Source: Murimonas intestini (GTDB taxonomy: Bacteria > Bacillota > Clostridia > Lachnospirales > Lachnospiraceae). From it: DNA of 64,000 nucleotides. Each line of letters starts with the position of its first letter. The first letter of the stretch is position 1. The notes below the pieces were generated by a model that was given only the letters and a program-made list of their open reading frames with translations, had not been told where the DNA came from and ran no database searches. Position numbers and translations under genes: made by a program. The stretch covers positions 1-64,000 of the forward strand of contig QGGY01000013.1 of NCBI GenBank assembly GCA_003148945.1, given 5' to 3'. Shown here piece by piece: positions 1,516-48,952 of the stretch.

Positions 1516-2874
1516 CTATCTTGTAATATTTTTCAACCAGCCATACCTTTTATAATGCAAAATGGCCACGGGAACTTTTACTACTTCATCCAGATTTATA
1601 ATGAGGAACACAATAACCACCGGTAAATGAAAATAAAAGGCAGCAAGAAAACCAGCGGGAACAGCAAACATCCACATGGTTACAGTATCACAGATCAAAC
1701 CAAATTTTGAATCACCGCCGGCTGGAAATACACCGGCAATCGTCATCATATTGATGGATTTAGCAATCATATAGCAGGCGCAAAGTATCAGCATCCATTT
1801 TAAATAATCCGTAGCCTGTTCGCTCAAAACCGTTACGTTTATAATAACAGGGGACAGCGCAACTAAAAGCAGACCGGACACGATACCGCTGATCACGGCC
1901 ATCTTCCAAAGTATCCCACCGTATTTTTTTGCCTGTTCTAAGTTTCCTGTACCAAGTTCATTGCCAATAATAATGCCGCCCCCATTTGCAAGCCCTGTAC
2001 AAAAGCTTACAATGAGATTTTTTACAATATTTGTAATCGAGTTGGCCGCCACTGCGTCATTTCCCAAATGCCCCATGATCACAGAATACATCGTAAAACC
2101 CACACCCCAGACAAGATAATCACCCAGCATTGGCAGACTGTATACCCAGTAATCTCTCACCAGCTGCTTATCGGCAGAAAAGCAAAGCTTTACATGGAGT
2201 CTGGCATGTTTTTCCCGCAGAGATTCTGCCTGCGCCCAGACCAGTTCAATCAGCTTTGAAACAGAAGTGGCAAGGGCAGCGCCCGCAATCCCCATTTTTG
2301 GGAAAAAGAATAACCCGAAGATGAGTGCAATGTTCAAAAATATATTGATTACAACCGCAGTTGATCCAATCACCATGCTTTTCACTGCGTATCCTGTATT
2401 TTTCAGCACACAGAGATAAATCTGTGATATACCGGTGAACAAATATGATATTGCCACAATACGGAGATAAACAATGCCTCCTTCAATAAGTTGGGACTCT
2501 TTTGTGAAAATTCGCATCAGCATTTCCGGAGCCAATAAAGATGCAAGAAAAAATACTGTGGAAATCAAAACGGATACTTTTGTAACATAAGCAAAAATCT
2601 TTTCAATTGAGTCCATATCACCTTTTCCGTAATACTGGGCTGCCAGGATACTTGTCCCCATTGTCAGCCCACCCATAAAAAGATTAAAAACAAATGTAAT
2701 CTGCCCTGCCAGGGAAACAGCTGAAAGAGAATCCTGATTGACAAAGCCGAGCATCAGTGCATCTGATGCGCTAACTGCCGCTAACATAAATTGCTGAAAT
2801 GCGATTGGCAGAACAAGCGAGAACAGTTTTCGGTAAAAAGCAGAGTTTCCCCCGCCTAAAATTTGAGATTTCAT
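1516..2874 (-). CDS. MATE-family multidrug/cation efflux transporter
   Basis: This 452-residue membrane protein has about 12 hydrophobic segments in two internally similar halves, the MATE layout. It begins with FYRKLFSLVLPIAFQQFMLA and repeats the pattern in the second half (YWVYSLPMLGDYLVWGVGFT). Such proteins export drugs or metabolites using Na+ or H+ gradients. GGAGG sits 5 bases before the ATG. It is divergent from the AraC regulator across about 260 bases, which suggests that regulator controls it. The substrate cannot be read from sequence. Confidence 0.9.
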   Translation of the reverse strand: MKSQILGGGNSAFYRKLFSLVLPIAFQQFMLAAVSASDALMLGFVNQDSLSAVSLAGQITFVFNLFMGGLTMGTSILAAQYYGKGDMDSIEKIFAYVTKVSVLISTVFFLASLLAPEMLMRIFTKESQLIEGGIVYLRIVAISYLFTGISQIYLCVLKNTGYAVKSMVIGSTAVVINIFLNIALIFGLFFFPKMGIAGAALATSVSKLIELVWAQAESLREKHARLHVKLCFSADKQLVRDYWVYSLPMLGDYLVWGVGFTMYSVIMGHLGNDAVAANSITNIVKNLIVSFCTGLANGGGIIIGNELGTGNLEQAKKYGGILWKMAVISGIVSGLLLVALSPVIINVTVLSEQATDYLKWMLILCACYMIAKSINMMTIAGVFPAGGDSKFGLICDTVTMWMFAVPAGFLAAFYFHLPVVIVFLIINLDEVVKVPVAILHYKRYGWLKNITR

Positions 2875-3134
2875 AATTGCCTCCTATATATAGTAGTATC
2901 ACGTAACTATTATAAAGAGGGTTATAAAACAAAACAGCGCTAAAACTTAACATTACTACTGGTGTTTTCTAATATAACTTTGTATAATGAAAGTTGGAAT
3001 TAATAGAGAGGCTGGCAATATGTATTTCCGCAGTATTATGCTCCAGATACCACTATAGTTAACATAATGAGTCAGCGGCAGATGATCAATCATAGTGATT
3101 TTAATCGTTTTTTATATGAAAGAAGAGGAATGAT

Positions 3135-4091
3135 ATGGGAAAAGAAATTTTTTGTGCTTCCATCGAACAACTTCGGAAACAATTTTTAACATTAGATTGG
3201 ACCTACCACGATTTTCCTGTGGGAAGCCATTCAGAAAAAATGTTTTGCTGGCCAGGGGAGCCGGAAGAAGAAATTCTGATCTGTGTCCATCAAAGCGGCG
3301 GACGTCAGGAGCTTTTTCACCGCCATGACTTTTTTTATTTTAATTTCACCTATCAGGGCGAATATGATTCTATCAGCTATAAGTATGACAACCGTATCAC
3401 CATCAGGGAAGGAGAACTCTACGCAGGCCAGCCTTTTGCCGGGCATGCGCTCTGTGTCCATGATGATAAGGAAACGACGATCATTGGTGTCCTGATACAG
3501 CGTGAAACCTTTTTTAGGACTTTCCTGCCCATGCTGTCCTCTAACACAAAACTGTTTCATTTTCTGCTTGACCCGGCTACAAATGAATTCTCTGATGAGT
3601 ATATGCATTTCAAAATTGAACATGACTGTAACATACGGACACTGCTTGAGATGATGGTCATAGAGTATGCAAATAAACAGGAAGACACTCAGGCCGTTTT
3701 AAAGTCACTTACCCTTTCTTTTCTGCTGCAAATAGCACGGCAATTTGTCCATGCAAACCAGGCTTCATCCGCCGGGAGTTTATCAGAAAAAATTGTACAG
3801 TATATGGGCGAACATTTTGATAGTGTGACGCTTAAAGATATAGCGAAACATTTTTCCTATCATCCGAACTATGTGTCTACCCTTCTGCATCGTGAACTGG
3901 GCAAATCTTTTTCGGAAATTCTTCTGGAGCAGCGGATGGAACGGGCTGTTATTCTGCTAAAAGGAACAACTTTGCCCATTGAAGAAATTGCGGCATTACT
4001 TGGCTATAGCAACAGCAGCAATTTTTACAAAGCATTCCGGGAATACTTTAAATATTCACCTCGTGAGTACATAGCTGCTCAGAATGAATAG
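3135..4091 (+). CDS. AraC-family transcriptional regulator
   Basis: In this 318-residue regulator the first ~200 residues form a cupin-like sensing domain (RQELFHRHDFFYFNFTYQGE). The last ~100 are the double helix-turn-helix AraC domain, with the second helix ending IEEIAALLGYSNSSNFYKAF followed by YSPREYI. The start has AGAGGA nine bases upstream. It is divergent from the MATE/acetyltransferase genes and is their most likely regulator; the effector is unknown. A TATAAT at about 2983-2988 is a plausible -10 for this gene. Confidence 0.9.
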   Translation: MGKEIFCASIEQLRKQFLTLDWTYHDFPVGSHSEKMFCWPGEPEEEILICVHQSGGRQELFHRHDFFYFNFTYQGEYDSISYKYDNRITIREGELYAGQPFAGHALCVHDDKETTIIGVLIQRETFFRTFLPMLSSNTKLFHFLLDPATNEFSDEYMHFKIEHDCNIRTLLEMMVIEYANKQEDTQAVLKSLTLSFLLQIARQFVHANQASSAGSLSEKIVQYMGEHFDSVTLKDIAKHFSYHPNYVSTLLHRELGKSFSEILLEQRMERAVILLKGTTLPIEEIAALLGYSNSSNFYKAFREYFKYSPREYIAAQNE

Positions 4092-4144
4092 ATCTGGGGA
4101 TTTTTTTATCTCATCCAGCCTTTGATACTCCCTATGAAAGAATT

Positions 4145-4169
4145 AGGCAGAACCCTAAAGATTCTGCCT
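4145..4169. terminator. Hairpin between convergent genes
   Basis: AGGCAGAA and TTCTGCCT form an 8-bp perfect stem with a 9-base loop, between the 3' ends of the AraC gene and the propeller gene. It lacks a strong T run, so it may be a weak bidirectional terminator. Confidence 0.4.
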
Positions 4170-4209
4170 GGAGATATTGCTTCGCTACTATAGAAAGCGA
4201 TCAAAAATA

Positions 4210-5208
4210 TTAAACATTTCCTTCAAGCGGCAGAAAGACTGGTGTACTTCTTTCACTCAAATCAAACATTGTAACTCCCAGTTGGTCTTTGTCCCACAAC
4301 CGAGATGCACAACAAAAAATAATATCTTTATCATAGATGCTGACCGCCTGACTAATAAAAGACAGACCCTTTGAAGACCCCCACACAATACCCCCACTAT
4401 TTTTTTGAAAAATAACATTATTATGCGCTTTAAAATTCTTTGTTGTCACAATTTCTATAGGTTTTGCCACATATCCTAATGGCTCCGCAAAGGTACCGGA
4501 AAAAATCGCATCTCTTTCCACCTCTGTCCCATCAACAGAATATTTATGATAATAACGATTCCATGCTTTGTCATCATCAAAAACAAAATAGCACACCTCA
4601 TTCCCATCCTTTTCCAAAGCTGTAATACGTTTTTTTTCATTTTCATATATTGTGCTTAGTATACCTGTTTCACTATCCAAACAAATGACAGAATTCATGT
4701 TAGCCAAATATATTTTTCCGTTGTTTTCTGTAACCACACTAATGCCTCCGAACATCTTATAATCCCAACTCCAAACATTGCCTGTGTATTCCATTTTATA
4801 TATTTTGTTCCAATTGTTTAGTATGATACCATCTCCTACAACAAAAAAACGATACGAAACTAAATCCTGTCCGAAAAATTTCCCACTCTCTCCGCTATTC
4901 AAATTTTCCCAATATATAACCTTATCTTTAGTAACCTTCCATACTAAAATGCCAAACTTTATCTGTGCCTCACAGTCTTCTGGTAATTCTTTAACAAGAG
5001 ATACCCTTCTGTTCAGCAAATTAACAGACACTACATGCCCATCCAGAATGAAATATTCTTTCTGCTCTTTTTTTTCTGTTCCCTGAATTGACAGTGCAGC
5101 AAATATCTCTTCTTTACTATATCCCAATTCTGCTCCTATGGCTAATGGATTCCTTTTTCCAAAATCTTTATGTCCCCTTATTCTCTGCATAATTTCATTT
5201 TCTCTCAT
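4210..5208 (-). CDS. Conserved hypothetical, beta-propeller-like protein (last gene of WYL operon)
   Basis: This 332-residue soluble protein has no signal peptide or membrane segment. From residue ~55 on it is built of short beta-strand repeats with aromatic turns (YFILDGHVVSVNL, VIYWENLNSGESGKFFG, GKIYLANMNSVICLDSETG), resembling WD/PQQ-type propellers. The N-terminal ~45 residues look helical. The ATG at 5208 is preferred over an upstream in-frame start because GGGAGG lies 5 bases before it. It follows the glycine-zipper gene by 44 bases, so it is co-transcribed with the WYL cluster. I recognise no named family; a role as recognition or scaffold subunit is only a guess. Confidence 0.6.
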   Translation of the reverse strand: MRENEIMQRIRGHKDFGKRNPLAIGAELGYSKEEIFAALSIQGTEKKEQKEYFILDGHVVSVNLLNRRVSLVKELPEDCEAQIKFGILVWKVTKDKVIYWENLNSGESGKFFGQDLVSYRFFVVGDGIILNNWNKIYKMEYTGNVWSWDYKMFGGISVVTENNGKIYLANMNSVICLDSETGILSTIYENEKKRITALEKDGNEVCYFVFDDDKAWNRYYHKYSVDGTEVERDAIFSGTFAEPLGYVAKPIEIVTTKNFKAHNNVIFQKNSGGIVWGSSKGLSFISQAVSIYDKDIIFCCASRLWDKDQLGVTMFDLSERSTPVFLPLEGNV

Positions 5209-44102: not shown

Positions 44103-44957
44103 TCAGACAAGTCCCAGCATTTCAAGCCGTTTTTGGTATGTCTGGCTGGTGGCGGACGTATATATCCTCGTAACTTCCAGGCTGCTGTGTCCCAGCAGGT
44201 CTGCCAGGCCGGCAATATCGTTTGTCGCCGCATAATAGACTCTGGCAAACAGATGACGCAGGTTGTGAGGAAATATCTTTACTGCATCCACCCCTGCTTC
44301 CCTGTGCAGCGCTTTCATCTCTGCCCAGATATTACTCCTGTTCTTTGGCTTTCCAGTTCTTGTAACAAAAACACAGCCTTTTGTAATATGCTGTTTCTGT
44401 ACAAAATAAAGTAGCTTCATTTTAAGCGCCTTAGGCATCAGTATGATTCTTGTTTTGCCTTTGTTCTGAACCTGGATACGTCCCTGCTTAATACTGTCTA
44501 CAGTAAAATAGGACAATTCACTGACACGTATCCCTGTAGAACAGATCGTTTCTATCATAAGTGACAATGCCGGTTTTCCTTTTTCTTCCGCCGCTTTTAA
44601 GAGATGGCGGTACTCTTCTTTACTGAGCTCTTTATCCTGTATGGCAAATAAGTTCCTCTGTACATTTAAACGCTTCACTTTCAATGTCCCCGCTTCCAGA
44701 AAAACCAGAAACTGATTTAATGCCACAAGCATTGAATTCACACTTGATACAGCATAATTTCCGGCAAGCCAGTTCTTGTAATCCACAAGGCATTGCTTGC
44801 TGACATCCCTGCTTTTATCCAGAAAGCGGTAAAAGGTGCGTATATCCGTCATATATTTCCTTATAGTGGCCTCCGAGTTTTCCCGCTCATAAAGGTATAT
44901 CCTAAATTCTTGCAAGTCTTCGTCATTTATTGTGATACATATATTTTCTCTTCTCAT
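44103..44957 (-). CDS. Tyrosine recombinase (candidate invertase of adjacent switch)
   Basis: This 284-residue protein has an N-terminal SAM-like core-binding domain (SEATIRKYMTDIRTFYRFLD) and a C-terminal catalytic domain. The full set of residues is present: CSTGIRVSELSYF (Arg), FPHNLRHLFARVYY (HxxR), GHSSLEVTRIYT (His and nucleophile Tyr). The ATG at 44957 is six bases after GGAG. No excisionase, relaxase or phage gene is nearby, so it is not part of a visible integrative element. Its 3' end lies 20 bases from the inverted repeat. Confidence 0.92.
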   Translation of the reverse strand: MRRENICITINDEDLQEFRIYLYERENSEATIRKYMTDIRTFYRFLDKSRDVSKQCLVDYKNWLAGNYAVSSVNSMLVALNQFLVFLEAGTLKVKRLNVQRNLFAIQDKELSKEEYRHLLKAAEEKGKPALSLMIETICSTGIRVSELSYFTVDSIKQGRIQVQNKGKTRIILMPKALKMKLLYFVQKQHITKGCVFVTRTGKPKNRSNIWAEMKALHREAGVDAVKIFPHNLRHLFARVYYAATNDIAGLADLLGHSSLEVTRIYTSATSQTYQKRLEMLGLV

Positions 44958-45129
44958 GATAGTCTCCATTTCCTGCCATTCTTTCGGCAATATCCAACAG
45001 GTAATTTTATGTCAGTCTTATGATTGCCATTCTCCCTGGAAAGGATTCATTCTAAGTAACTGTTCAGCTGCGAAAATATCATATTGAATACCGCATGAAA
45101 AATTAAATACAGAAAAAGACAGAAAAAAA

Positions 45130-45184: not shown

Positions 45185-46450
45185 CTAGGCTTCTGTTGAT
45201 GCCTCTGTTTCTGTACTGTTCTGAGCCTCTGTCTCTGCTGCTTCAGAAGTATCCTCCGTCTCTTCGGCTTTGGCAGCAGACTCACTCTCAGAAGCTACTT
45301 CTGTTGTATTTTCTTCTGTTGTATCTTCTCCCGCTGTCTGTGCCTCAGTTGCGGCTTCTGTACCTGACTCAGTCTCTGTCTCAGCAGCCGGAGCCTCTGT
45401 TGGGGCTTCGGTGGATGCTTCTGTCGGCTTCAGCGTAAATGTATCAAAGAAATCCAGTTTTGCCACTTTTTTATCATTTACTGTGAACTCTGCTTCTTCT
45501 TTCCATGCAGCAGTCACCTCTTCAAACTTGTCTGCTTTTCTCTGCTGTACGATCGTCTCTTTTCTTGTCTCTGTTGCGTCTTTGTCAAATGTAGTCTTCA
45601 TCTGAAGCACATAGTAACCTGTCTCAGCTTCCACAGGTTCATCCGCAAACTGTCCGTCTTCAAGTGTTTCTGCTGCTGTTTTCACTTCTTCCTTCAGGTT
45701 TCCGTTGTCAGTCCCATAGGAAGAGGAAATCATGGAAAGGGAGTCATCCTCCGCTTTGGCGGCAGCCTCCAGATCCTGGCTCTCTTTAGCTGCATCCAGA
45801 ATCCTCTGTGCCTTATCCTTTACCTCTGCCTTCTGCTCATCAGTCAGGTCAATCGTATTGCCTTCCTCGTCCTTCTCTGTACCTGCAGTACTCAGGAATA
45901 CATAATTTACCGTCTTCTGTGCCGCTTCTTCATCACTCACATTTGTATCCGCCTGATTGTAGATGGCCTGCTGCATCTTGGACTGCACTGCATACAATGT
46001 CATAGCCCTCTCAACGACTTCCTGGGTAGCGCACATTTCATCAAGGACAGTTTTATCATTTGCTGCAATAAAGTCTTCAGCAGCTTTTGTAAGGGATGCT
46101 TTCTCTTCATCCGTAAGAGCTACATTATACTCTGATGCATGCTTCTCCAGCAGGAGCATCTGCTCTATATTCTCAAGGATCCCCTGTTTAAATGTCTCCC
46201 CGTATGTAGTCCCGTCTCCCGCCAGGTCAGTATTGAACATATCATCCCCGAACAGAGATGCATACGGCCCTCCCTGGAACTGTGCCTGATTAAAGCGGAC
46301 CATAAATGTATATAAATCCAATTTAATATCTTCACCATCTAATGTGGCAACCGTTACCTTTGCCGGGCTGCCAGAACATCCTGTCAGGGAAGCCGCTCCC
46401 ATGCAGGCACACAGTCCCATAACTGCCAATCTCTTGCCTAACTTATTCAT
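45185..46450 (-). CDS. PrsA/SurA-like peptidyl-prolyl isomerase lipoprotein
   Basis: This 421-residue lipoprotein has a type II signal ending SLTGC and an N-terminal SurA/PrsA chaperone region (DLYTFMVRFNQAQFQGGPYA, ILENIEQMLLLEKHASEYNV). A parvulin-like region follows (VNYVFLSTAGTEKDEEGN, FADEPVEAETGYYVLQMKT). The last ~85 residues are a Thr/Glu/Ala tail of APTEAPAAETETES type, a composition shared with the two other exported proteins in the window. It would fold secreted proteins outside the membrane. Confidence 0.85.
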   Translation of the reverse strand: MNKLGKRLAVMGLCACMGAASLTGCSGSPAKVTVATLDGEDIKLDLYTFMVRFNQAQFQGGPYASLFGDDMFNTDLAGDGTTYGETFKQGILENIEQMLLLEKHASEYNVALTDEEKASLTKAAEDFIAANDKTVLDEMCATQEVVERAMTLYAVQSKMQQAIYNQADTNVSDEEAAQKTVNYVFLSTAGTEKDEEGNTIDLTDEQKAEVKDKAQRILDAAKESQDLEAAAKAEDDSLSMISSSYGTDNGNLKEEVKTAAETLEDGQFADEPVEAETGYYVLQMKTTFDKDATETRKETIVQQRKADKFEEVTAAWKEEAEFTVNDKKVAKLDFFDTFTLKPTEASTEAPTEAPAAETETESGTEAATEAQTAGEDTTEENTTEVASESESAAKAEETEDTSEAAETEAQNSTETEASTEA

Positions 46451-46599
46451 AAGTAAGTATCCTCCTAAAGTTCATAAATCGCTGCAGGGCGCAAAGACGC
46501 CTGCACCAGCTTATTATAGCCCTTTTTTGTCTCTGCCGCAATGCTTTTGTGTAAAGAAACACAATAATTTCACATTAATTGCTGTTTAGGGGAGTAACA

Positions 46600-46956
46600 G
46601 GACGCTTTGTCCAGAAGGCAGTGAGCCTTGAGTCAGGAGCAGGGGCAGGAAGAGGCCGTTGTTCTGTCCGAACCGCTGTGTCCTGAAACTCTAAGGCTCC
46701 AGACACCGCTAGAACCGCAAAAAGCGGCCGGAAACTCGACAAGTCCGCCGATGCGGACTCGTCTCAGACAGCTCCGGCCTCGAGCGCAAGCGCTCGTTTT
46801 TGCTGACCGCGCTGTCTGGAGCCTAAGAGTTTCATGTCCTCGCTATAGTCCGCCACAACGGCCTCTTCCTGCCCCTGCTCCTGACTCAAGGCTTCAAGTT
46901 TACTGGCACAAAGCTGGCTGTTATAAACAGGCCGGGACTGGGATGGAAAACCACTA
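46600..46956 (+). ncRNA. Large structured RNA candidate, copy 1
   Basis: A ~357-nt element. From outside in: GCTTTG/CAAAGC (46604-46609 with 46909-46914); a perfect 39-bp helix (46624-46662 with 46855-46893); a conserved internal loop (CTGTCCGAACCGCTGTGTCC opposite CATGTCCTCGCT); a ~21-bp helix with one fixed mismatch; GCAAAAA/TTTTTGC; GGCCGGA/TCCGGCC; hairpins AGTCCGC/GCGGACT and GAGCGCAAGCGCTC. A trailing hairpin CTGTT/AACAG follows. Copy 2 at 47074-47435 preserves every helix with different bases. Open frames across it are incidental. Confidence 0.75.
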
Positions 46957-47073
46957 TGTATATGAAGGAGTTTAATTGAAATCTTTCTCTATGTTGATTT
47001 AGAAATAGAATACCCTATATATTTTGAATATGACAAATAATTGATTCCAATATATTTCGGGAATCCAGCAAAG

Positions 47074-47435
47074 TAGTGGTCTCACCCATACCCCAGCCTC
47101 ATTACGGGAGCCAGCTTTGCACCGATAACCTTGGCATCAGTGGGAGGGACAGGCGGCGGGCGTGTGGCTTCGGGGTGAAGGACTTGAGCGAGGACATGAA
47201 AATCTTAGGTTCCAGAGTCTGCGGTCAGTGAAAGTGAGCGCTTGCGCTCAAGGGCGGAACTGTCTGAGGGGCGTTTGCATCAGGCAAACGCACCGAGTTT
47301 CCGCCCGCCTTTCACGGTTCAAGCAGACTTTGGAACCTTAGATTTTCAGGACACAGCGGTTCGGACAGAGCCCCGAAGCCACATGCCCGCCGCCTGCCCC
47401 TCCCGCTGATTCACTACCTACAATGCAAAGCGTCC
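47074..47435 (-). ncRNA. Large structured RNA candidate, copy 2
   Basis: This ~362-nt relative of copy 1 is on the opposite strand, tail to tail with it. The outer ~36-bp helix has a wholly different sequence from copy 1 but still pairs (three wobbles or mismatches). Inner helices change in compensation: GTGAAAG/CTTTCAC for GCAAAAA/TTTTTGC, GCGTTTGC/GCAAACGC for AGTCCGC/GCGGACT, TGAGCG/CGCTCA for CGAGCG/CGCTCG. Loop and flank sequences are conserved, including GGACGCTTTG, GGAAACTCG, CTCAGACAG, CTGACCGC, CAAAGCTGGCT and ACCACTA. Confidence 0.75.
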
Positions 47436-47596
47436 TCCCCGCCTCTAATCATCTAACCAGTAATTTAACCGCAAAAACCTTCCATATCAACGCAGTCATG
47501 CAGAAATAATTGTTTTGGTACTTCAAATATTTCTCACCCTGCATATATACAGAAGGTTTCCTGTTTTTATTTATTACTTCTTAAGGCTGACCGCAC

Positions 47597-48952
47597 TTAC
47601 AAGTTTTCTCCATTCATATGAATAGTCTCACGATACCATTCATATGAATCTTTCGGGATACGTTCTAAAGTTGCAAAATCTATGTAAACTAAACCGAAGC
47701 GGTCGCTATATCCCTGGCTCCACTCAAAGTTGTCCATCAGCGACCACTGAAAATATCCGGCAATATCGATACCTTCTTCTGCTGCCCGGCGCAGTCCCAA
47801 AAGATGGCGGTGCAGATAATCAATACGGGCTGAATCGTGTACCTTACCGTCTAAACTTAACCAGTCATGGCAGGACATGCCGTTTTCAGTAATGTAAATC
47901 GGCTTCTTATACCGTTCATTCAAGAATTTCACAGCCCAATACAGGCAGTCAAAATTCACATGCCATCCGATAGCCGTTTTAGGACCGCCCGCCGGATGTT
48001 TTAAAAATTCCGGCCTGCCATCCTGGCCCATGCGCACCGGGTCACCCCGGTAAATATTCTGGCCGTAGAAATCTATGGGCTGAGAGATCAGCTTCATGTC
48101 ATCCCCGCCAACATGCGGCATGTCTTTCTCCAGAATTTTCATTCCATCCTCCGGGTATTTTCCCAGCAGCACCGGATCACTCCACCATGCAACACTCCAT
48201 ACCCAGTCATCACCGCCAGGGGTTGCGAAGTAAGCCTGTCTGGCAGCCTCCTGATCCTGAAGGCTCTCACTTACCGGGACTGCCGCATTTGAGGTAGGTG
48301 CATATCCAATCTGTACACCGGGCACCTCTGCCCGCAGCGCCTGGACTGCACGCCCATGAGCCAGCAGGACATTGTGGCTCATCTGCAGACACTCCCTCCG
48401 CTCCATTCTGACTCCTGGTGCATGAACTGTCTGTATAAAGGAGCATCCGATAAACACCTGGGGTTCATTAAAAGTGATAAAATGCTTTACTTTACCCTTT
48501 AACCTCCGGCCTATCAGCGCCGCATACTCAGCAAACCACTGCGGACTTTCCGGATTCATCCAGCCGCCGCGAAGATACAGCGCATATGGCATGTCCCAGT
48601 GGTATAATGTTACATAAGGCGTAATGCCATGCTCCAGCAGCATGTCCACCAGACGTTCATAAAAATGCATTCCCGCCTCATTGACATCTCCGATTCCCTG
48701 GGGCAGCACTCTGGGCCACGAAACAGAAAACCGGTAGGCCTTAAGACCCAGATCCGCCATCATTTCTACATCTTTTTCCATGCAGTGATAATGTCCGCAT
48801 GCAGTATCGCCGGTATGGCCGTCAAATACTTTTCCGGGCTGATGAGAAAAAACATCCCAGATAGACTCTCCTTTCCCGTCTTCAAATGCTGCACCCTCTA
48901 TCTGATAAGCGCTCGCGGCAGCGCCCCAGACAAAATCCTTCCGAAAAGCCAT
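47597..48952 (-). CDS. GH1 beta-glucosidase / 6-phospho-beta-glucosidase
   Basis: This 451-residue cytoplasmic GH1 TIM barrel has N-terminal FVWGAAASAYQIEGA, acid/base Glu in HFITFNEPQVF, nucleophile Glu in PIYITENGMSC, and QWSLMDNFEWSQGYSDRFGL at the aglycone side. It would hydrolyse beta-glucosides or related disaccharides. It is the last gene of the glycan operon, five bases after nagB. Confidence 0.92.
   Translation of the reverse strand: MAFRKDFVWGAAASAYQIEGAAFEDGKGESIWDVFSHQPGKVFDGHTGDTACGHYHCMEKDVEMMADLGLKAYRFSVSWPRVLPQGIGDVNEAGMHFYERLVDMLLEHGITPYVTLYHWDMPYALYLRGGWMNPESPQWFAEYAALIGRRLKGKVKHFITFNEPQVFIGCSFIQTVHAPGVRMERRECLQMSHNVLLAHGRAVQALRAEVPGVQIGYAPTSNAAVPVSESLQDQEAARQAYFATPGGDDWVWSVAWWSDPVLLGKYPEDGMKILEKDMPHVGGDDMKLISQPIDFYGQNIYRGDPVRMGQDGRPEFLKHPAGGPKTAIGWHVNFDCLYWAVKFLNERYKKPIYITENGMSCHDWLSLDGKVHDSARIDYLHRHLLGLRRAAEEGIDIAGYFQWSLMDNFEWSQGYSDRFGLVYIDFATLERIPKDSYEWYRETIHMNGENL

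Follow-up and report, generated by a model that had tools for sequence, protein, structure and literature searches.

Dispersed units of two facing structured halves in Murimonas intestini and related gut bacteria

The window analysed here, a stretch of 64,000 nt from Murimonas intestini (contig QGGY01000013.1), contains at 46600-47435 two sequences that a sequence-only reading had described as convergent copies of an unrecognised structured RNA of about 360 nt. The locus raises the question of what these sequences are: whether the structure under selection is RNA or DNA, which strand folds, and how far the pair extends beyond this one place.

A repeated unit and its copies in the host genome

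Both copies are real, and they form one pair among many. The repeated unit is the pair itself, ~890 bp at 46578-47464 (no strand), which comprises copy A, an AT-rich centre and copy B. It is delimited by paralogue alignments and by the matching ends of the two ~360-nt copies, which have common end sequences (ATTGCTGTTTAG...), with ATTGCTGTTTAG / CCAGTAAT at the ends of the unit. On the strands first read, copy A occupies 46600-46957 (+) and begins GGACGCTTTG; it is preceded at 46578-46599 (+) by the A-side end sequence ATTGCTGTTTAGNGGAGTAACA, common to many units of the host genome. Copy B (47070-47437, -) faces copy A across the AT-rich centre (46958-47069, no strand), and the B-side end sequence at 47437-47464 (-) reads ATTACTGGTTAGATGATTAGAGGCGGGG inward.

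The long helices described for the two copies were borne out. The outer helix P1 of copy A is a perfect 39 bp, formed by a 5' arm at 46624-46662 (+) and a 3' arm at 46855-46893 (+). The conserved folded core of this copy (46663-46844, +) is matched by both of our covariance models, R1 and R2. It includes an inner long helix, whose 5' arm at 46684-46709 (+) pairs with 46809-46834 and places CTAAG opposite CTAAG, and the family signature AACTCG-N11/12-GATGC-N8-CTCAGACAG at 46733-46771 (+), a hairpin between conserved unpaired bases. Copy B likewise has a long outer helix (47136-47175, -, paired with 47371-47410), with 40-nt arms that are 93% complementary and a sequence unlike that of the outer helix of A; its conserved folded core lies at 47187-47369 (-). 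The inner arms are 26 nt long and 92% complementary in both copies, consistent with the inner helix proposed earlier. Alignment of A with B shows conserved unpaired stretches and different outer helices, in agreement with the single-stranded conservation first noted, and smaller helices that change on both strands are visible by eye in the alignment of copies.

Weak sigma-70-like matches in the AT-rich centre point outward (46994-47023 on the plus strand and 47036-47007 on the minus strand), from a scan of 46450-47600 that gave 3 matches against 1.0 expected (sd 1.0). No terminator was found at the unit ends; the single predicted terminator is within copy A (1.1 expected). A XerA/XerD-like tyrosine recombinase is encoded at 44103-44990 (-; Phage_integrase, 91 bits), ~1.6 kb from the unit. 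In agreement with the view that the structure is unrecognised, no Rfam family reaches its threshold on the element. A cmscan of the window from 44 to 50 kb gave a single match, which is below threshold and lies in coding sequence outside the element. Among eight loci from relatives, the sole match on an element was the plant microRNA MIR1858 on half B of locus L139, at 39.5 bits compared with a gathering threshold of 137, which we take as a chance hairpin match.

BLAST with copy A gives 57 matches in the host genome (5.75 Mb, 41 contigs), a number that includes fragments and hits to the reverse strand of the same palindromes; model R2 gives 34. We examined 31 host loci, the window and 30 further stretches around BLAST matches, all of them matched by a profile scan. 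Facing A/B pairs account for 17 of the 31, and in some of them one partner is truncated. Of the 14 loci that remain, ten sit within ~135 nt of a contig end. A degenerate pattern for the unit ends (ATTGCTGTTTAG-like, at both ends) occurs at 25 places, and the reversed control at none; two of the 25, on C18, have no BLAST match listed there. Paralogous units at different places are nearly identical (97.8% over 645 bp; 99.3% over 435 bp), and paralogue alignments that reach an outer end break off within ~15 bases of it. The genome also holds truncated units and a solo hairpin (L041). No consistent target-site duplication was found in the 14 host units inspected, of which nine had both ends recognised; a single one, L024, is readable as having a 5-nt duplication. 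An annotated transposon end is lacking, yet the element may still be mobile DNA, because its units are dispersed repeats whose ends match.

The idea that the arms are guides to the host genome, or captures from it, was rejected: all 57 BLAST places lie in stretches found by the profile scan, in a search that matches shorter than ~22 nt could escape. The same extra core hairpin (TGTAAGTCCCCCTCCT...GTCGGCGGACGG) is present at the same place in two otherwise different halves, L031 and L041.

Selection on pairing and the folded strand

In each half, 230-370 nt long, an outer helix that is long and variable is followed by an internal loop and then by another long helix; the fold also has a junction with the AACTCG-hairpin-CTCAGACAG signature, and further hairpins. 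Two-sided changes affect 16 of 49 pairs among 20 copies from the host genome. With the structure of model R1 they affect 44 of 49 among 40 copies from seven genomes, which are the 40 of 55 rows kept by an E-value cut aimed at reverse-strand matches, a cut at which some rows in sense orientation, L096, L097, L098 and several B halves among them, were lost. In this 40-copy alignment, which was fitted to the R1 structure and so favours it, 93.1% of 1842 cells are paired compared with 60.7% in shuffles, two-sided cells number 607 against 175, and the covariation score is 0.735, against 0.186 in shuffles and 0.07-0.12 in slid controls. Further pair types show no excess over the shuffles in this set (113 versus 113.0). 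An independent MAFFT alignment of 24 copies has two-sided changes in 34 of 37 predicted pairs. In 18 copies from Oscillospiraceae bacterium S14_Bin4 (S14), unpaired regions are near-invariant and helices are variable, with 1657 Watson-Crick, 14 G-U and 38 mismatched cells. The covariation first seen between two copies therefore extends, far above controls, to 40 copies from seven genomes, and selection acts on the base pairing of the element.

The balance of G-U and A-C cells on each strand offers a concrete test for distinguishing structured RNA from structured DNA. On the strand first read, the 40-copy set has 20 G-U and 21 A-C among the 1562 cells of its four main helices, and 67 and 30 among the 1842 cells of all 49 pairs. 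The covarying pairs of a SAM riboswitch control (28 of 30 loci used, from related genomes) contain 30 and 3 among 382. With structures predicted separately for each strand, G-U becomes commoner, up to ~5%, because such predictions pick the G-U pairs of their own strand; on the complement it exceeds A-C in all five sets (in host A halves, 56 versus 5 of 1140 cells).

On pairs predicted for both strands, the 117 G-U-type cells divide into 36 on the strand first read and 81 on the complement, which is ahead in all four sets: 20:36 in S14 (19 distinct copies), 6:12 in A halves of Eubacteriales bacterium S27M_St_58 (S27M; 14 copies), 4:14 in host A halves (10 copies) and 6:19 in host B halves (11 copies). 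The corresponding control with the SAM riboswitch gave 14:2 for its true strand. The better strand has ~2 G-U per A-C on shared pairs. In all four sets the complement also folds more stably, with lower energies both as RNA and as DNA; in S27M the margin is small. The folded strand is thus probably the complement of the strand first read, so that the pair, described earlier as convergent, would be divergent if transcribed. The near-strict Watson-Crick pairing leans towards a DNA hairpin or cruciform, without amounting to proof, and is compatible with RNA too. Of the proposal that selection maintains an RNA or an extruded DNA structure, the selected pairing stands; RNA is not established, and folded or extruded DNA fits at least as well.

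Relatives, fixed sites and neighbouring genes

Model R1, run on 397 genomes of the family, matched 6, of which three were weak, and R2 matched 1 of 391 genomes of the class, with at most six candidates scored per genome, which makes this rarity weak evidence of absence. In the genus around Blautia massiliensis GD8 (the Blautia genus), 10 of the 60 genomes searched were positive, and the number of matches per genome ranged from 1 to 38. The signature pattern occurs in 53 stretches of named genomes: 24 are from S14, 16 from S27M, 4 each from Candidatus Limivivens merdigallinarum (G220) and GD8, 2 from Lachnospiraceae RGIG3762 and 1 from UBA7160. The other two stretches, L103 and L134, were dropped as chance occurrences, the surrounding structure being absent by eye. 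G220 falls in the family set of the window's species, which accords with a place of that species in the Lachnospiraceae. S27M is a metagenome-assembled genome that also belongs to the Blautia genus set, as G413, with 38 element matches. No element match was found in viral contigs, searched with the signature pattern, or in plasmids and phages.

Facing second halves occur at S27M and GD8 loci and in another genome, G452 (L297); two halves face each other within one unit in at least two genera, that of the window and the Blautia group. A third genus (G042) probably has facing halves as well, and its copy L072 has alongside it a smaller facing hairpin that no model matches. None was present at three S14 loci checked. 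Outer helices in the relatives are 30-122 nt long and 85-100% complementary; that of L083/L095, 122 nt and 98% complementary, extends into an open frame on the 3' side. A second small repeat (GAGCGTGTTTGAAAATTG...TTTTCAAACAC) is found in or next to S27M units at L125 and L147, within or beside half B.

Conservation, compensation and decay all occur at fixed sites. Orthologues of two copies from GD8 were identified in the sister genome G466; one pair shows 2 differences in ~290 nt and the other a single difference, at the base, and the wider stretches around them are 94-98% identical. Orthologous copies thus change less than their surroundings. At a third GD8/G466 site, half A of G466 has been deleted between GGAC repeats and half B is retained with a 16-nt deletion. 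This site of G466, which had appeared to be empty, is in fact a hairpin deletion, and no young insertion next to its empty site was seen. At locus L118 of GD8 (1793-4575), three ORFs that look IS66-like by eye lie at the base of an element; they are missing from the orthologous G466 locus, L175.

G452, G437 and G416 carry the element downstream of a gene that we take, by eye, to be proC-like. The core has been deleted at a CTG repeat in G473, G452 is without the left arm, and no element is seen by eye in G459, G436 and G456. A T-A pair of G452 is C-G in G437 and G416, a compensatory change, and within the same helix a neighbouring pair is G-T in G416. A T-rich run follows the outer stem at this site.

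The copies are mostly intergenic. No called ORF spans any of 20 host units, and one does at 1 of 24 S14 loci (L130); the nearest stop codon is often only tens of bases away. There is no common neighbour family among the 137 nearest ORFs of 84 loci, a set in which the nearest ORF of L148 was exchanged for the Rpn-like one behind it: among the 25 commonest of 185 families, MatE and ABC_tran lead with five each. A general role as a 5' leader was rejected, since the gene on the A side points away in 14 of 15 S27M cases but no such bias exists in the host genome or in S14 (10 versus 11). Orientation relative to genes varies between genomes. In G452, where the first ORF, judged by eye, is presumably DnaA-like, replication would run in the same direction as 16 of the 20 matches, assuming a terminus near mid-chromosome; genes have the same bias.

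A Y1 (TnpA-REP) transposase was matched in five of six genomes searched. The sixth, G413, gave zero matches, and on this basis the transposase was rejected as a common partner; G413 contains 38 matches to the element and is metagenome-assembled, so that the absence is not final. Rpn-like genes adjoin four host loci and two of four GD8 loci. In the host they form a ~1.25-kb gene cassette at element ends, between or beside units (L023 3646-4888, L043 127-1380, L045 3909-4984 and L049 1897-3134), and are ~91% identical paralogues. Against TIGR01784, one of the six Rpn-like proteins scores above the cut-off (L120, 64 bits), four reach 17-22 bits and that of L045 has no match; none of the six has a Pfam match. 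With the six as tblastn queries, no homologue was found in 800 kb of the host genome at spaced positions elsewhere; the queries came from element loci, and the four host hits therefore arise by construction. Nor was there a homologue at 24 S14 or 16 S27M loci, in a search that more divergent Rpn genes could escape. An Rpn-like fragment seen by eye beside L083 (G042) has no family match and was left uncounted.

Explanations and comparison with known systems

The analysis documents a large number of copies, units that share their ends and can be nearly identical at different places, a fold that persists as the letters of its helices change, residence at orthologous sites and decay by hairpin deletion. 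Tentatively, and at slightly less than an even chance, we favour a family of foldback repeats, like giant REPINs or MITEs, that are non-autonomous, dispersed and mostly intergenic and in which selection sees the folded strand. The absence of ORFs across host units and of a common neighbour family, the equal rarity of G-U and A-C in the main helices, the one strand preferred in four sets, the co-directional bias in G452 and the Rpn-like genes at host and GD8 loci also speak for it. New copies would come from the folded strand, exposed as single-stranded DNA and processed by a trans-acting enzyme; a need of this enzyme for the exact fold could account both for the conservation of unpaired bases and for helices that are close to purely Watson-Crick. 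The Rpn-like proteins are its best local candidate, as yet an unproven one. Against foldback repeats of this kind, no consistent target-site duplication and no young insertion were seen, no transposase is linked to the element in all genomes, and RNA could give both the per-strand G-U counts and the ratio on the better strand. The very conserved orthologous copies (2 changes in ~290 nt) indicate that the elements are not hyperactive. A wider claim, which we regard as rather doubtful, is that these structured nucleic acids, dispersed through genomes, make up a new class. Its members would have a multi-helix core of ~180 nt, in which unpaired bases are conserved and pairing is almost entirely Watson-Crick, and would act as single-stranded DNA in its folded form, or else as RNA of the strand opposite to that first read. 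They would be spread in pairs by a system so far unrecognised; an Rpn-like nuclease is one possibility, and the natural DNA substrate of that nuclease would then be found.

The main rival, which has a real if minor share of the probability, is a multi-copy structured non-coding RNA, each half being transcribed (outward from the AT-rich centre, if the complement is the real strand) and acting as RNA or ribonucleoprotein. The ornate fold with its conserved unpaired motifs would suit such a molecule, as would the better folding of one strand in all four sets, a strand that has 81 of the 117 cells of G-U type among shared pairs, and the excess of G-U over A-C on the complement in five of five sets of per-strand structures. 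The compensatory change from T-A to C-G at an orthologous site, with a neighbouring G-T in a third species, and the two weak outward promoter-like matches in the centre point the same way. However, G-U makes up ~1% of the main helices, equal to A-C, the relatives' outer helices are 30-122 nt long at 85-100% complementarity, the unit ends are without a terminator, and the outer arm has been lost in one species and the whole core in another.

We regard it as unlikely that the copies are BIME-like extragenic DNA structures useful to the host, whether as binding sites for topoisomerase or nucleoid proteins or as terminators or stabilisers at the 3' ends of mRNAs. Their distribution is uneven, with the genus search positive in 10 of 60 genomes, gene orientation is inconsistent between genomes, losses are tolerated, and by eye no T-run follows the host and S14 copies inspected; these points stand against the mostly intergenic position, often tens of bases from a stop codon, the slower change of orthologous copies than of their surroundings, and the T-rich run after the outer stem at the proC-like site. 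Less probable again are functionless quasi-palindromes, with arms complementary only through hairpin template switching that copies arm onto arm. Such copying would fit the two-sided changes with few one-sided intermediates, and hairpin-mediated deletions do happen, but it predicts the opposite of the unpaired bases being among the most conserved. The fold kept across genera, the elements that change less than their flanks and the single-base mismatch intermediates present in S14 copies have already weakened this explanation further.

The dispersed repeats that we favour make up a large family of structures in gut bacteria, with tens of compensatory base pairs, for which the Rfam release that we searched has no entry. 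A pipeline for RNA discovery would call the element RNA, though its pairing pattern fits folded DNA at least equally. The Rpn family is described, in passages of the literature, as a widespread 'putative transposase' of disputed role (PMC5350276, PMC10327210). If the link to Rpn were true, the element would be a natural substrate for this family.

Titles and opening lines in the literature, and passages of two studies (PMC8040213, PMC2864571), gave no description of the element family; the 250 palindromic candidates in the supplement of the first study could include it. REP, BIME and REPIN sequences are described in parts of several papers as dispersed extragenic palindromes, with facing pairs as the unit, high copy number and long-lived populations (PMC3116915, PMC8049555, PMC8266576, PMC2817692), and single REPs, in a passage of a further one, as 20-40 bp long (PMC3733652). 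Here too the repeated unit is a facing pair of extragenic palindromes (17 of 31 host loci, and also in S27M, GD8 and G452 at L297). In contrast to the REPIN/RAYT system, the halves are 230-370 nt long with a multi-helix core, and the high-copy G413 has no match to a Y1 (TnpA-REP) transposase.

MITEs and foldback elements are short and non-coding, with common inverted ends and many copies. Our element likewise is short, non-coding and present in many copies with shared terminal inverted repeats; it differs in that each half folds alone, that the core and not the ends is conserved between genera, and that there is no consistent target-site duplication. OLE, ROOL, GOLLD and HEARO are large ornate bacterial RNAs with covariation and conserved loops. 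The element shares with them a large fold, covariation and conserved loops, but it has no Rfam match to these families, is present in tens of copies and has very little G-U in its main helices. The attC sites of integrons are recognised as a folded strand, and their structure and unpaired bases are conserved while the paired sequence varies. The same is kept and the same varies here, in an element that is several times larger and, at the loci read, lies outside cassette arrays. By these comparisons, the element appears to resemble REPINs in its architecture and attC sites in the way that conservation is divided between sequence and structure.
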